Assembly: GCF_004799665.1 (NCBI RefSeq)
Contig: NZ_CP031310.1
Coordinates: forward strand, 1,976,887-2,040,886
Direction: 5' to 3'
DNA from: Halapricum salinum
GTDB taxonomy: Archaea; Halobacteriota; Halobacteria; Halobacteriales; Haloarculaceae
DNA length: 64,000 nucleotides
Below, piece after piece: positions 22,903 through 51,072 of this stretch. The position numbers were made by a program, and so were the translations under genes. Numbering within the stretch: position 1 is the first letter of the stretch; every line of letters begins with the position of its first letter. A model generated the notes under the pieces. The model searched no databases, was not told where the DNA came from, and saw only the letters and a list, made by a program, of their open reading frames with translations.

Positions 22903-22967
22903 TTGAAGCCGACGCGCTGTGACACAAATCACTTGCTATTAAGTACTTCTCTTGTTTATTGAAGGGT

Positions 22968-23392
22968 GTGGAAGACGATGAGTATCTGAGACGTACAGCG
23001 ATTACCCGCCCTACCCTCACTGACAAGCAACAGGAGTTGCTTGACGCGACAATCGGCGAGTGGAAGACTGCCTGCAACATCAGTAGCCGAATCGGATGGG
23101 ACCACGAGGAAACGCGGAAAACCTATCTCCAGGACCTCGCATACGATGACGTGCGCGAGGAGACATATCTCGGGAGTCAGCACGTCATTCTCGCCACCCA
23201 CCAAGCCGCAGCCGCGCTTTCGGGTGTCGATGAAATCGAAGATCTAGACGAACACTACAAAACATCCCGACCAACGTTCACCAGCAACACGGTAAAATAC
23301 GACACGCGGACGATGACGGCTCAGTATCACTGTCCACTGTCGATGGCCGGATTCGATGTGGCCTGAACCTCCCGGACGAAGAAGATGGCTAT
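22968..23392 (+). pseudogene. tnpB: TnpB N-terminal fragment of the outer element
   Basis: This is the first third of an RNA-guided nuclease TnpB, from GTG 22968. It begins with RRTAITRPTLTDKQQELLDA, a typical OrfB N-terminus, followed by SQHVILATHQAAAAL. The frame hits TGA at 23364-23366, but one base back in frame the sequence continues LNLPDEEDGY until 23392, so there is a one-base frameshift besides the insertion. The next codons of the protein (QHAYLEDDDWEMTE) appear only at 25007, beyond the inner element. The fragment cannot make an active enzyme. Confidence 0.85.
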
Positions 23393-23395
23393 CTT

Positions 23396-23538
23396 GATTC
23401 AGCGAGAGAATCCCGCCCTTCCCGTGAGTGACGAGCGTTCCGACGCTTAGTCGGAACCGAGGACCGAACAGGGGCATGGCAAGACCGGAGGTCTTGCTGC
23501 ACCCGAAAATCTTCGATTTTCGAGGACGGGAGTGAATC
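23396..23538 (+). repeat. Left-end hairpin cluster of the inner tnpB element
   Basis: GATTC (23396-23400) with GAATC (23534-23538), and TCCCG (23411-23415) with CGGGA (23527-23531), can pair across the region. Inside are TTCCGAC-GCTTA-GTCGGAA (23438-23456), GCAAGACC-GGA-GGTCTTGC (23479-23497) and CGAAAATC-TTC-GATTTTCG (23504-23522), all perfect. The last two form a tandem pair like those at 33513-33560 and 50789-50837. Confidence 0.85.
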
Positions 23539-23635
23539 GCGTACGCTCCGACACCCAACCGACAGTGTTTCTCCCGGCAGGATATTTCAGCCGACCCGAA
23601 AGAGTAAGTCATTGTGCTGTCATAGGCTATGTATA

Positions 23636-24889
23636 GTGAATCTGGTCACGACACGTACCATTACAGCGGCACTCACCAACGACCGTGAGGGTGTCGTGTG
23701 CGACCTTGATTCGCTCGCTCGTTCCGGCAGTAAAATCTGGAACGTTGCGCGGTGGACTGCTGGCCACATCTGGGACGAAACCGGGGAAATACCCGATGAA
23801 GGACCGCTCAAGTCCTACATGAAGAACCAACCGTGCTGGAAAGATTTGAACGCCCAATCAAGTCAGGCAATCATAGAAGAATTGGCTGGCGCTTTCCAGT
23901 CCTGGTTCGAACAAGACAACTCGGACGCCAACCCACCGGGCTACCGCAAACACGGTGACGAACGGCCACGCTCGACAATCACGTTCAAAGAAGACGGCTT
24001 CAAACTCGATACAAACCACCAGCAGGTCCGACTGTCGAAAGGCAAGAACCTGAAAGACGGGTGGAGCGACTTCGTTCTTTGCGAATACGATACCGGTCCA
24101 GACGCAGACCTGACTGCTGTCGAAGACGTCCAACAGGTCCGCATCGTCTGGAACGGTGAGCAGTGGGAACTGCACTTCGTCTGCAAAGTCGCCATCGACG
24201 CCGCTGACGCGTCTGGCGAGAAGACGGCTGGTGTTGACCTCGGCATCTGTAACACGGCGGCTGTCTCTGTCGGTAACGAGACGCTGTTGTATCCGGGCAA
24301 CGCCCTGAAAGAAGACGCGCACTACTTCCGACAGGAAGAATACGACACGGAAGGTGAAAACGGTCCCAGTACCCACGCTGAGTGGGCACGCCAGAAGAAA
24401 TCACGGCGGCAGACCCACTTCCTGCACGCACTCTCGAAAGACATCGTAGAGCAATGTGCAGACCGTGGCGTGGAGACGATAGCAGTTGGACATCCGAAGG
24501 ACATCCGTGCGAATGCAGACTGGGGGCGGCACGGGAACAAGCGTCTGCACGACTGGGCGTTTGACACCGTACTGAGTCACATCGAGTACAAGGCCGAGGA
24601 ACGTGGTATCGAGGTACAGCGAGTCGATGAGTACGAGTTGGCCACGTCAATAACCTGCTGTGCGTGCGGGATGAAAGCCGAGTCGAGCCGTGTCGAGCGT
24701 GGCTTGTACGTGTGTGAGAGCTGCGAACTGGTCGCTAATAGCGACCTGAATGCGGCGGAGAATATGCGTGCGACGGTAACTCCGAATCCCTCACGGGATA
24801 GGAGTAACGGCTGTCTGGCCCAGCCATCGGTGCGCCTGTTCGACAAATCCACGGGGCGAGTCGCCCCACAAGAACAGGTCTGCCCGTAG
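23636..24889 (+). CDS. tnpB: RNA-guided endonuclease TnpB (complete)
   Basis: TnpB is the nuclease of IS200/IS605-type elements and the ancestor group of Cas12. It cuts DNA matching the guide of an omega RNA made from the element's right end. The sequence has a RuvC-I aspartate in GVDLGICNTAAV, a RuvC-II glutamate in VETIAVGHPKDI, a zinc ribbon (CCAC ... CESC) and a RuvC-III aspartate in ANSDLNAAENM, so all catalytic parts are present. GTG 23636 gives the usual VTTRTITAALTND start; TTG 23612 would add eight residues. It has 417 residues, normal for the family. There is no tnpA beside it. Confidence 0.92.
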   Translation: MNLVTTRTITAALTNDREGVVCDLDSLARSGSKIWNVARWTAGHIWDETGEIPDEGPLKSYMKNQPCWKDLNAQSSQAIIEELAGAFQSWFEQDNSDANPPGYRKHGDERPRSTITFKEDGFKLDTNHQQVRLSKGKNLKDGWSDFVLCEYDTGPDADLTAVEDVQQVRIVWNGEQWELHFVCKVAIDAADASGEKTAGVDLGICNTAAVSVGNETLLYPGNALKEDAHYFRQEEYDTEGENGPSTHAEWARQKKSRRQTHFLHALSKDIVEQCADRGVETIAVGHPKDIRANADWGRHGNKRLHDWAFDTVLSHIEYKAEERGIEVQRVDEYELATSITCCACGMKAESSRVERGLYVCESCELVANSDLNAAENMRATVTPNPSRDRSNGCLAQPSVRLFDKSTGRVAPQEQVCP

Positions 24890-24930
24890 ACCAGCAAATA
24901 TCCCAACGCTTGCGGTGCGGTTCGGGAAGC

Positions 24931-24995
24931 CTCGCCGTCGTCGGGCTACGCCCGACTGCCTGAGGGATCTTCGATCCCTCTCCGTTCACGGCGAG
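24931..24995 (+). repeat. Right-end cruciform, candidate omega RNA part
   Basis: CTCGCCGT (24931-24938) pairs with ACGGCGAG (24988-24995) and encloses two perfect hairpins: GTCGGGC-TAC-GCCCGAC (24940-24956) and GAGGGATC-TTC-GATCCCTC (24962-24980). It lies 42 bp after the tnpB stop, where omega RNA scaffolds of related elements are found. An RNA function here is inferred from position only. The same hairpin pair, with different stems, occurs at 33348-33390. Confidence 0.75.
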
Positions 24996-25006
24996 GAGGA
25001 GGTCAC

Positions 25007-25783
25007 CAGCACGCCTACCTCGAAGACGACGACTGGGAGATGACAGAATCCACGCTCTCGAAGCGTGACGGGGAGTACTATTTGCATCTCGGTTTCAGAA
25101 AGGACAAACCGCCGAAGCAGGTTGCGGTGCAAGATGACGACGAGGACAGGACAGTTCTCGGCGTTGATCTCGGCATCGTCAACATCGCCACCACCAGTAC
25201 AGCGTACTTCGCCTCCGGTAGAGAACTCCGGCACCAGCATCGAGAGTTCGAGCGGATTCGCGGCGAACTTCAGCAGACGGGGACACAGTCGGCCCATCGA
25301 ACTATGCAGCAGATGGGTGGCCGAGAGTCACGGTACGTCCGCGATCAACTGCATCAGGTTGCGAACCAGATTCTCGAAGAAGCACTCGACCATGACTGTG
25401 AGTACATCGCGTTCGAGAATCTGAAACATATCCGAGAGCGCGCGCCGCCCGTCAAAGAGTTCCACCAGTGGGCACACCGTCAACTCGTTGACCTCGTCGA
25501 GTATAAGGCCGAGGCCGAAGGCATCTGTGTGGAGTTTGTGTCACCTCGAAATACGTCGCGGCGGTGCCCTGAGTGCGGGCATACGAGTGAGGGGAACCGT
25601 GTACGGCAGGCCGAGTTCGAGTGTGAATCGTGCGGTGCGACGCAGAACGCGGATTACGTGGGTGCGAAGAATGTCGGATGGCGGTTTGTCCGCCGGGGCC
25701 TACAGTCGTCTCGGCGGACGGGTGACAGTCAACTCGCCCTGAAGTCAGGAACAGTGACGTCCTCAGGTTTCGTAGAAACCTGA
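25007..25783 (+). pseudogene. tnpB: TnpB C-terminal fragment of the outer element
   Basis: This segment continues the protein cut at 23392. It starts QHAYLEDDDWEMTE and contains RuvC-I (VLGVDLGIVNIATTS), RuvC-II (YIAFENLKHIRERA), the zinc ribbon (CPECGHTSE ... CESCG) and RuvC-III (QNADYVGAKNVG). A start at ATG 25040 could still make a 247-residue protein holding all RuvC motifs but no N-terminal RNA- and DNA-binding part. The stop codon is inside the arm of a hairpin at 25763-25783. Confidence 0.85.
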
Positions 25784-25898
25784 TGTGCGAACGAGACGCG
25801 ACGCGTCTCGTCAACGCCGAATCGGGGATTTGTCCCGTCCGACTGAGTGTTGGCAGAGGCCGAGTTCACTGACAAGTCCCGCGCACCCGTGCGCGGGA
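25763..25898 (+). repeat. Right-end hairpins of the outer tnpB element
   Basis: TCAGGTTTC-GTA-GAAACCTGA (25763-25783) overlaps the tnpB stop codon. ACGAGACGCG-A-CGCGTCTCGT (25791-25811) is a near-continuous palindrome. TCCCGCGCAC-CC-GTGCGCGGGA (25877-25898) closes the region. All stems are perfect. Confidence 0.8.
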
Positions 25899-33067: not shown

Positions 33068-33200
33068 CGTCCTCGCTTCGGGTTCTGTCTCCTTGCTCTT
33101 TCTGCCGTCTCTAACCTCTTTGGAATTTGTTCGTAATGGTTGGGTCGAAATTTTGGAGACTGGCGTGTGCAGTCACGACGTCGTGTCGTGACGACTTCAC

Positions 33201-33797
33201 GCGAGGGATGAGTGAGCCGGAGGCGAGCGAATCGGCTGGGGAGGGTGTGGTGCGGTTGGAATGCTGTTGCAGTGTGGTTGCGGGTGGGGCTTTCTGGATC
33301 TGCTGAACTGTACAGGAGGCCCAGAAAGCCCCGACAGACTCGGAGTCGTCGGCGCTACGCGCCGACTGCTTGAGGGACCTCCGGTCCCTCTCTGGCTGCG
33401 ACTCGCTGCGCTCCTCGCCTCGCTACGCTCGGCGGCGGTGTCGTGCGGGCGACCCGTGAGTCGCCCGCACGGCCAGAGGGACCTTCGGTCCCTCCCTGCT
33501 TACGTCGTGGTTCGAGAGAGCGGAGCTCTCTCGTCATCACGAAAGACCTCCGGTCTTTCGGACGATCTCGCTCTCCGAGCAGGGAGGCCGGTTTCACCGG
33601 CCTCCTATAATGTGGCGGCTTCGCCGCCACGCTTGTCACCCCTTTCAGTCCCACCCACAGCAACGGCAGCCACACCCTCCTCACGGGTCGCGATGCTCCC
33701 CGTTCGTCCAGTCGGCGGCGCTCCCATCGGTCGCGCCGCCCGCTCCCCAACCGACTGCGTTGCTCGTCGCTTCGCTCCTGCGCTACTCATCCCTCGC
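33201..33797. repeat. Hairpin-rich dispersed element, copy B
   Basis: The ends are inverted: GCGAGGGATGAGT (33201-33213) and ACTCATCCCTCGC (33785-33797). Inside are GGGGCTTTCTGG/CCAGAAAGCCCC with a 23-nt loop (33286-33332) and seven perfect hairpins with 3-nt loops or one 6-nt loop: 33348-33366, 33372-33390, 33442-33471, 33476-33494, 33513-33533, 33540-33560 and 33583-33605, plus 33612-33630. The tract CCCTTTCAGTCCCACCCACA begins at 33640. No protein-coding gene is convincing. A related copy lies at 50497-50945. Confidence 0.85.
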
Positions 33798-33941
33798 GCA
33801 ATTCCGGCTCGCGACGGCACGCGAGCCAGCGCGCGCCGGGTTGACTGGTACTGAGCACAAGTACAATACAGAGTGCCCGGGCGGGCACTAGAGACCTCTC
33901 GGAAAGAGCGGCGACAACGGAACAAAGGGGATAGACAACTC

Positions 33942-50396: not shown

Positions 50397-50496
50397 CTAC
50401 GTTTCGTGTTGTGGGTCTGGGCGGCTATGGGTTGTGATTTCGTATGGAGGGATTGTGGCGTGTGCGGTCGCGAGTCTCGTCTCGCGGCGACTTCAC

Positions 50497-50945
50497 GCGA
50501 GGGACGAACGAGGGAGCATCGCGACCGAGTGAGTCGGCTGGGGAGGGCGTGGCGCGGTTGCGGTCCAGTGGGGTGGACTGAAAGGGACCGGACTCTCGAC
50601 GAACCCCGGCGACGTAAGCACTGGAGCGAGCGAAGCGAGTGAAGCGCGCAGCGAGTCGCGGGAGGCGAGAGTCCGGGGGCTTTCTGGACCTGCTGGACTG
50701 CGGAGCACAGCCAGAAAGCCCCGGCCGGCTCGAAGGCTGCGGCTCGCTGCGGTCCTCGCCTTGGGGCTGCGGTCCTTACGTCGTGGTCCGAGAGAGCAAG
50801 GCTCTCTCGTCATCACGAAAGGCGCTTGCGCCTTTCGAACGACCTCGCTCTACGAGCCGGCCGCCCCTTTCAGTCCCACCCACAGCAGGCCACGTCCTCC
50901 CCAGCCGATTCCTTCGCTCGCAGCGCTCGCTCAGTCATCCCTCGC
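50497..50945. repeat. Hairpin-rich dispersed element, copy C
   Basis: The ends GCGAGGGACGA (50497) and TCATCCCTCGC (50935-50945) are inverted with one mismatch. The next blocks, TCGGCTGGGGAGG (50534-50546) and CCTCCCCAGCCGA (50896-50908), are perfectly inverted. Inside are CCGGACTCTCG/CGAGAGTCCGG (50588-50676), GGGGCTTTCTGG/CCAGAAAGCCCC with a 23-nt loop (50676-50722), CGAGAGAGC-AAG-GCTCTCTCG (50789-50809) and CGAAAGGCGC-TT-GCGCCTTTCG (50816-50837). Order and sequence match copy B at 33201-33797. No gene is seen from 50397 to 51072. Confidence 0.85.
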
Positions 50946-51072
50946 GCGCTGCTGGCTCACCACGACCGGTTCGCCAGCACGCGCCGGATGATTAGTCTGT
51001 TCGTATTGCAGGCCAATCCGTCGCGCTTTTGGCCGCGCACACGTTGAGAAGAAACAACAGAGACGTTCCAGC

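Follow-up and report, generated by a model that had tools for sequence, protein, structure and literature searches.

Paired hairpins at a tnpB right end and in a foldback repeat of Halapricum salinum are probably copies of a transposase-less mobile DNA unit

Introduction

The stretch of Halapricum salinum DNA analyzed here (64,000 nt, referred to as the window) contains two similar pairs of short hairpins, one directly behind the inner of two nested tnpB genes and the other in a repeat that has no tnpB. The question raised by this locus is why the same structure should be found at both places. The initial annotation had described it as a right-end module of tnpB that also exists outside such elements, either as decayed tnpB elements or as stand-alone guide-like RNA. 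Comparison with other haloarchaeal genomes suggested a different answer. The two pairs are copies of one short mobile unit, designated DHE-A, and the preferred reading, to which a probability of roughly 0.78 is assigned on the basis of sequence comparison, is that DHE-A is a mobile DNA unit without a transposase, about 45-47 nt long and built from two short hairpins.

Results

The first pair consists of GTCGGGC-TAC-GCCCGAC at 24940-24956 and GAGGGATC-TTC-GATCCCTC at 24962-24980, and the second of GTCGGCGC-TAC-GCGCCGAC at 33348-33366 and GAGGGACC-TCC-GGTCCCTC at 33372-33390. The letters and coordinates in the initial annotation agree with the sequence, as do its statements that the hairpins are 5 nt apart in both pairs and that the stems are perfectly paired. 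DHE-A is laid out as CGTC, hairpin, TGCYT, hairpin, CYGT over 45-47 nt, mostly with 3-nt loops. On the forward strand, the copy in the right-end hairpin loop of the inner tnpB element spans 24939-24985 (model R1 match 24936-24985, E = 2e-25), a site that is empty in relatives, and the copy in the tnpB-free foldback repeat spans 33344-33395 (model R1, E = 2.5e-22); both copies belong to the training set of the model. In a BLAST comparison of the collected loci, the inner tnpB right end matched the 33.3-kb copy (57 nt, 84% identical, E = 5e-10).

The window contains 7 neighbouring pairs of perfect hairpins, defined by a stem of at least 7, a loop of 3-5 and a distance of no more than 10 nt from each other. 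In dinucleotide shuffles of the window (n = 20), no hairpin pair was present in 19 and one was present in the remaining shuffle; a chance origin of the paired hairpins is excluded. A second, weaker DHE-A-like unit (33439-33499, forward strand; model R1, E = 2e-12) lies in the same foldback repeat as the 33.3-kb copy. A different unit, DHE-B, was found on the forward strand at 33506-33567 (model R2, E = 4e-24) and, in a second copy of the foldback repeat identified also by its arms, at 50782-50844 (model R2, E = 7e-24). Both DHE-B copies are in the training set, and the same unit is found inside DHE-A in other genomes. The hairpin list also gave two forward-strand double hairpins, one at 23479-23522, within the inner element's left end, and one of other sequence at 25763-25811, close to the 3' end of the outer gene. 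The latter probably represents a third unit family; pairs that resemble it but have other stems are present in L002 and L024. The initial annotation had missed the DHE-A-like unit at 33439-33499, the DHE-B units and a longer stem at 24930-24996 that encloses the first pair.

The inner element is of the IS1341 type and occupies 23399-25006 on the forward strand, with tnpB at 23612-24889 (Pfam OrfB_IS605 and Cas12f1-like_TNB). It is inserted after TTGAT within an older tnpB, the outer gene at 22959-25783, whose reading frame is restored once the two flanks are joined. The outer tnpB is in different frames before the junction and at the junction and therefore looks like a pseudogene. The guide of the inner omega RNA, which starts from 25007, would match copies of the outer gene that are without the interruption.

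A sot/omega-RNA-like 3' region on the forward strand extends from 24774 up to the right end at 25006, which was placed at GGAGGAGGTCAC by comparison. An Rfam search of the window at the gathering score gave no match. Below its gathering score of 88, sot0042 matched 24774-24947 (77.6 bits, E = 2e-20), covering the end of the coding sequence and the 3' region. The last feature of sot0042 is a terminal hairpin closed on a short loop. At the inner tnpB, the predicted fold gave a right-end hairpin at 24930-24996 on the forward strand, in which CCTCGCCGT (24930-24938) is paired with ACGGCGAGG (24988-24996) and the DHE-A pair is enclosed; loop lengths in relatives are bimodal. It is very probable that DHE-A is an insertion in the loop of this hairpin, which would be the 3' hairpin of the sot/omega RNA. 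A weak Rfam match to HgcC (24937-25010, E = 0.04) was also obtained over the inserted hairpins. HgcC RNAs have been annotated in haloarchaeal genomes, for example in Haloterrigena jeotgali (PMC4572444), and may be such hairpin units.

The tnpB regions of Natrialba sp. SSL1 (L279) and of G055 (L226) are 95.8% identical over 1300 nt, and their right ends are identical except for exactly 47 nt, the DHE-A unit. The loop of the right-end hairpin fell into three length classes among 59 right ends, 2-6, 44-53 (mostly 49 or 47) and 108 nt, the last indicating that the second unit, DHE-B, sits inside DHE-A. In an unbiased draw, for which only the sequence that precedes the insertion point was used as the query, 21 of 30 right ends were empty, DHE-A was present in 5 and DHE-A containing DHE-B in 4. 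On the TnpB tree, the filled and empty states require at least 4 changes, 3 of them forced by well-supported branches, and the combined A+B state arises twice; the tree has 34 rows, some of them partial, was built by a quick method, and gain and loss look alike on it. In G077, tnpB elements with the same unit are found at different sites, and in G026 empty tnpB elements are found at several sites, so both states can transpose.

All 65 of the right-end DHE-A copies are in the orientation of the tnpB strand, a count that does not amount to 65 independent events because the copies are partly related by descent. In tnpB right ends, the unit is flanked by CGT on one side and TYACG on the other; elsewhere it mostly follows GT. 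At tnpB right ends, DHE-A has CCGT or GT on both sides, whereas CTGT or CTGG forms the end of many copies. L267 and L299 appear to be fused left and right ends of tnpB elements, with DHE-A in the joined hairpin, and look like core-deleted elements of the PATE kind.

Copies were also found inside genes. In G063, DHE-A is in frame and antisense within leuS (leucyl-tRNA synthetase), and the leuS genes of two congeners align with it at 95% identity and are 45 nt shorter. In G098, the unit is in frame within an HNH-like gene whose relatives are without the insert. In these comparisons, as at tnpB right ends, the whole two-hairpin unit is present or absent together. A NurA-like ORF of G057 is a third candidate; the names leuS, HNH-like and NurA-like come from our reading of the protein sequences. 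In-frame copies with empty relatives make a strong case for mobility and against a tnpB-specific function. The leuS copy, the many empty right ends and the exact 47-nt difference speak against the view that the pair is a right-end module of tnpB.

In G002 and G028, a 59-nt DHE-B unit separates GTCGGG from CTACGCCCGAC within hairpin 1 of DHE-A. The same arrangement is present in G058, G069, G017 and G077, six genomes overall, and in G077 the DHE-A stem differs from that of the other nested copies. The right end in L235 (G002) has a third double hairpin in the DHE-B linker. Nesting at L235 is thus three deep, comprising the right-end hairpin, DHE-A, DHE-B and the third double hairpin. Tandem DHE-A units with a 45-nt period were found in G014 and G036. 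The DHE-B model matched 79 of 79 class genomes. Copies of DHE-B also lie at extreme contig ends in L260 (G017) and in G003; the hairpin repeats therefore seem to break assemblies.

The pairing of the stems was evaluated in the first 21 copies, nearly all of which were found through sequence similarity. Standard pairs were formed in 97.2% of the pair cells, compared with at most 53% in slid registers. Two-sided changes were seen in 27 cells and one-sided changes in 2, and shuffles gave 4.9 two-sided changes. A larger set of 77 distinct model-found copies had 116 two-sided Watson-Crick changes and 5 G-T pairs, a ratio that overstates the pairing because such copies lean towards paired stems, together with 22 mismatches, most of them at the loop-closing pair. 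A structured RNA is expected to have many wobble pairs. Their near absence suggests, therefore, that complementarity is kept in DNA. The loops occur in both orientations (TAC 40 and GTA 13; TTC 64 and GAA 4; other loops too), as hairpin inversion would produce, although this is only suggestive.

A DHE-A covariance model built from the 21 copies matched 136 of the 145 genomes of the class; no more than 41 candidates were scored in each genome, and the copy numbers are therefore minimum values. When the phylum was sampled more widely, the model matched 28 of 33 class members and, weakly, only 3 other genomes. An exact degenerate pattern run against 84,980 species gave 45 matches in 43 stretches, all haloarchaeal. 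Instances linked to tnpB elsewhere, which had been set beforehand as a test of the initial annotation, were found: the tnpB right-end flank is present at 36 of the 45 exact matches, a fraction that does not apply to all DHE-A because the exact pattern follows the tnpB-end subtype, and a TnpB was detectable upstream at 16 of the 45. The model and the comparisons thus bear out that the module is real, structured and covarying, and that it is often located at tnpB right ends and is found elsewhere as well. Plasmids of Natrialba, Natrinema, Haladaptatus and others carry DHE-A copies, with no annotated feature under the plasmid copies among the matches listed. The possibility of viral spread was considered and rejected; neither the viral contigs nor the phage collection contained an exact match, although plasmid copies exist.

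The 33.3-kb copy is hosted by a multi-copy foldback repeat with imperfect inverted arms (33160-33845, ends approximate; fold z-score -9.6), in which the arm and module map places both DHE-A and DHE-B. There are 57 partial matches to the repeat in the H. salinum genome, and 17 of 19 relatives and many other haloarchaeal families also have matches. The foldback repeats at 33160-33845 and at about 50456-50987 belong to a class-wide, multi-copy kind that is densely filled with small hairpins and has long inverted arms of imperfect complementarity. The 33.3-kb repeat (~700 nt) looks like a composite that has grown through insertions of such units. The genes that flank it are near each other only in G002, where they are about 2.2 kb apart. 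GGAGGAKGTCA, a terminal oligonucleotide of the IS605-like kind that a PATE would have, was not seen by eye in the 33.3-kb region, the ends of the repeat being approximate. A permissive Rfam search of the foldback gave a microRNA match alone, which was dismissed as chance. Covariation of the DNA type and the position of the 33.3-kb copy in a different repeat, a foldback in which no tnpB terminal sequence was seen, speak against a stand-alone guide-like RNA. The alternative of decayed tnpB elements may fit L267 and L299 with their fused ends but not the 33.3-kb locus. Overall, the evidence from DHE-A points to a DNA element rather than a guide RNA.

Discussion

At the level of aligned genomes, the comparisons show precise presence or absence of DHE-A at otherwise identical sites and repeated changes of state at tnpB right ends. 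They also show nested families, tandem units, in-frame gene copies, constant boundaries and a near-universal occurrence in haloarchaea. The evidence for mobility consists of these comparisons; the tnpB tree alone fits either insertion or precise loss.

How DHE-A moves can be proposed only tentatively, and the odds of single-strand insertion at hairpin tips are put at somewhat below even. DHE-A would move as single-stranded DNA folded into its own hairpins and would be joined into an exposed single strand, by preference at the tip of an existing element-end hairpin. Such a reaction would explain both why units are nested and why their orientation is fixed with respect to the tnpB strand. Between moves, the arms would stay complementary at the DNA level, for example through template-switch correction or hairpin conversion, which would account for two-sided changes without wobble steps. 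In the window, DHE-A would lengthen the 3' hairpin of the inner tnpB omega RNA; it does not abolish the mobility of the element, since relatives carrying it have transposed. IS605-type elements move via a single-strand intermediate (PMC3119063), and the single orientation of the right-end copies and the proposed single-strand movement would fit that mode. Outside element ends, the flanks pair in 8 of 45 copies compared with a permutation mean of 2.2 and a maximum of 7, some of the 8 being tnpB right ends that passed the filter, and this lends weak support to hairpin-tip insertion as a general rule. A wider and more doubtful extension is that several haloarchaeal families of hairpin units enter each other's hairpins and those of transposon ends by a single-strand hairpin-tip reaction without any known transposase, the nesting building foldbacks and repeatedly remodeling the 3' hairpin of the TnpB guide RNA.

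Chance hairpins or transcription terminators have a negligible probability. Many hairpins do occur in the GC-rich intergenic DNA of haloarchaea, but DHE-A has conserved ends, linker and length, its model matches reach E values around 1e-20 and are restricted to one class, and it shows single-site presence or absence and copies within genes; the shuffles, the covariation, the class restriction and the 47-nt difference refute this origin. It is very improbable that the pair is an ancestral right-end part of the tnpB omega RNA, absent from some lineages through loss, whose copies in other repeats are decayed elements or stand-alone guide-like RNAs. The location of 36 of the 45 exact matches at tnpB right ends, in a single orientation, and the sot0042 match of the region would be expected of such a part. 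However, the terminal hairpin of sot0042 closes on a short loop, 21 of 30 right ends in the unbiased draw are empty, the differences are a precise 47 nt and there are almost no wobble pairs; moreover, the in-frame gene copies and nested units would be left unexplained.

If DHE-A is a mobile DNA unit, a Y1 (HUH) transposase of the IS200/IS605 or RAYT type might move it in trans by recognizing CGTC and the hairpins, as proposed for REPs. Y1 transposases act on element-end hairpins, some of them on tagged REPs (PMC3733652), a Y1 gene is present in 99 of the 145 class genomes, and the insertion sites of DHE-A include the end hairpins of such elements. This explanation is nevertheless rather unlikely. 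Although tnpB elements are present in the H. salinum genome, a search of all of it found no Y1_Tnp (PF01797) gene; this genome, G014, G036, G040, G031 and G104 are all without a Y1 gene and yet have at least 12-29 DHE-A copies, and G039, G073 and G065 have 10, 5 and 5 Y1 genes and no DHE-A match. A resident Y1 was rejected as the mobilizer, the copy numbers of DHE-A not tracking the presence of Y1. It is unnecessary at present because the H. salinum genome has none and yet carries at least 12 copies and because no link was seen in the other genomes; an earlier or visiting Y1 and template switching are serious rivals. In the latter, the units would have no enzyme of their own and would be spread by replication template switching and microhomology-mediated copying of hairpins. 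It would agree with the failure to find a dedicated gene, junction microhomology of only the GT type, both loop orientations (TAC 40 and GTA 13; TTC 64 and GAA 4), stems that stay perfectly paired and tandem units with a 45-nt period. It is unlikely, however, since boundaries and length are constant across many haloarchaeal families and the same right-end position has been struck in several TnpB lineages, a higher precision than random template switching normally yields.

The movement of transposase-less mobile hairpins, including REPs, RPEs, SMRs and double-hairpin elements, is still unexplained. Because haloarchaea include genetically tractable strains, the question becomes testable with an archaeal family that is abundant and class-wide, has clean empty sites, is nested and lies in frame in genes. 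The results are also a warning that covarying hairpins at tnpB ends need not be guide-RNA scaffold and that such hairpin pairs elsewhere are not guide RNAs.

In the open-access literature, a search for an earlier description of DHE-A in haloarchaea gave only the Haloquadratum paper (PMC3119063). The SMR-A elements of Haloquadratum walsbyi are ~110 bp long with prominent inverted terminal repeats, insert into palindromes close to the termini of IS605-type elements and of PATEs, and have been suggested to inactivate their host elements (Dyall-Smith et al. 2011, PMC3119063). Like DHE-A, they are short, transposase-less and multi-copy in haloarchaea and lie inside near-terminal palindromes of IS605-type elements, which for DHE-A is the right-end loop, both filled and empty; SMR-A has no clear target duplication and its way of moving is unexplained (PMC3119063). 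Judged from its description, SMR-A differs in its ~110 bp and inverted ends from the 45-47 nt of DHE-A, whose CGTC and CYGT ends are unlike. Furthermore, SMR-A is known there from one species, whereas DHE-A is class-wide and also in frame in genes. Nested A+B units are about 106 nt long, and some SMR-A could therefore be such nests. Simple inactivation of the host is argued against because tnpB elements carrying DHE-A have spread. PATEs are tnpB-free, have IS605-like end palindromes and often host small repeats (PMC3119063); they are hosts, not the inserted unit. DHE-A is likewise hosted, at the inner tnpB, in the terminal hairpin of the sot/omega RNAs of haloarchaeal tnpB (Rfam RF02656; PMC12558985).

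The CGTC-REPs, including Rickettsia RPE-4 and RPE-6 (Di Nocera et al. 2013, PMC3733652), share with DHE-A the CGTC at one end, short palindromes, the lack of a dedicated transposase and copies in genes. The alignment and 74 flanked copies of DHE-A have the CGTC (or TGTC) tag, with a GGTC subset. However, CGTC-REPs are bacterial, with a single 8-9 bp hairpin, a 4-5 nt loop and a tail that is often CCA, whereas DHE-A has two hairpins, mostly 3-nt loops and the tail CYGT. Palindromic elements of the RPE kind also insert in frame into protein-coding genes, as DHE-A does in leuS and the HNH-like gene. Unlike the GTAG REPs that are moved by RAYT, DHE-A has no GTAG tag, and the H. salinum genome has no Y1. 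The mitochondrial double-hairpin or repetitive hairpin-forming elements (Erpenbeck et al. 2009, PMC2800124) have the same two-hairpin form and are scattered, some of them in genes, and no target duplications were reported for those of Allomyces (PMC2800124); they differ in being mitochondrial, and nesting in transposon-end hairpins is not described there. DHE-A is filed here as a transposase-less mobile hairpin that stands beside SMR-A, CGTC-REPs, RPEs and double-hairpin elements and is a member of none of them.
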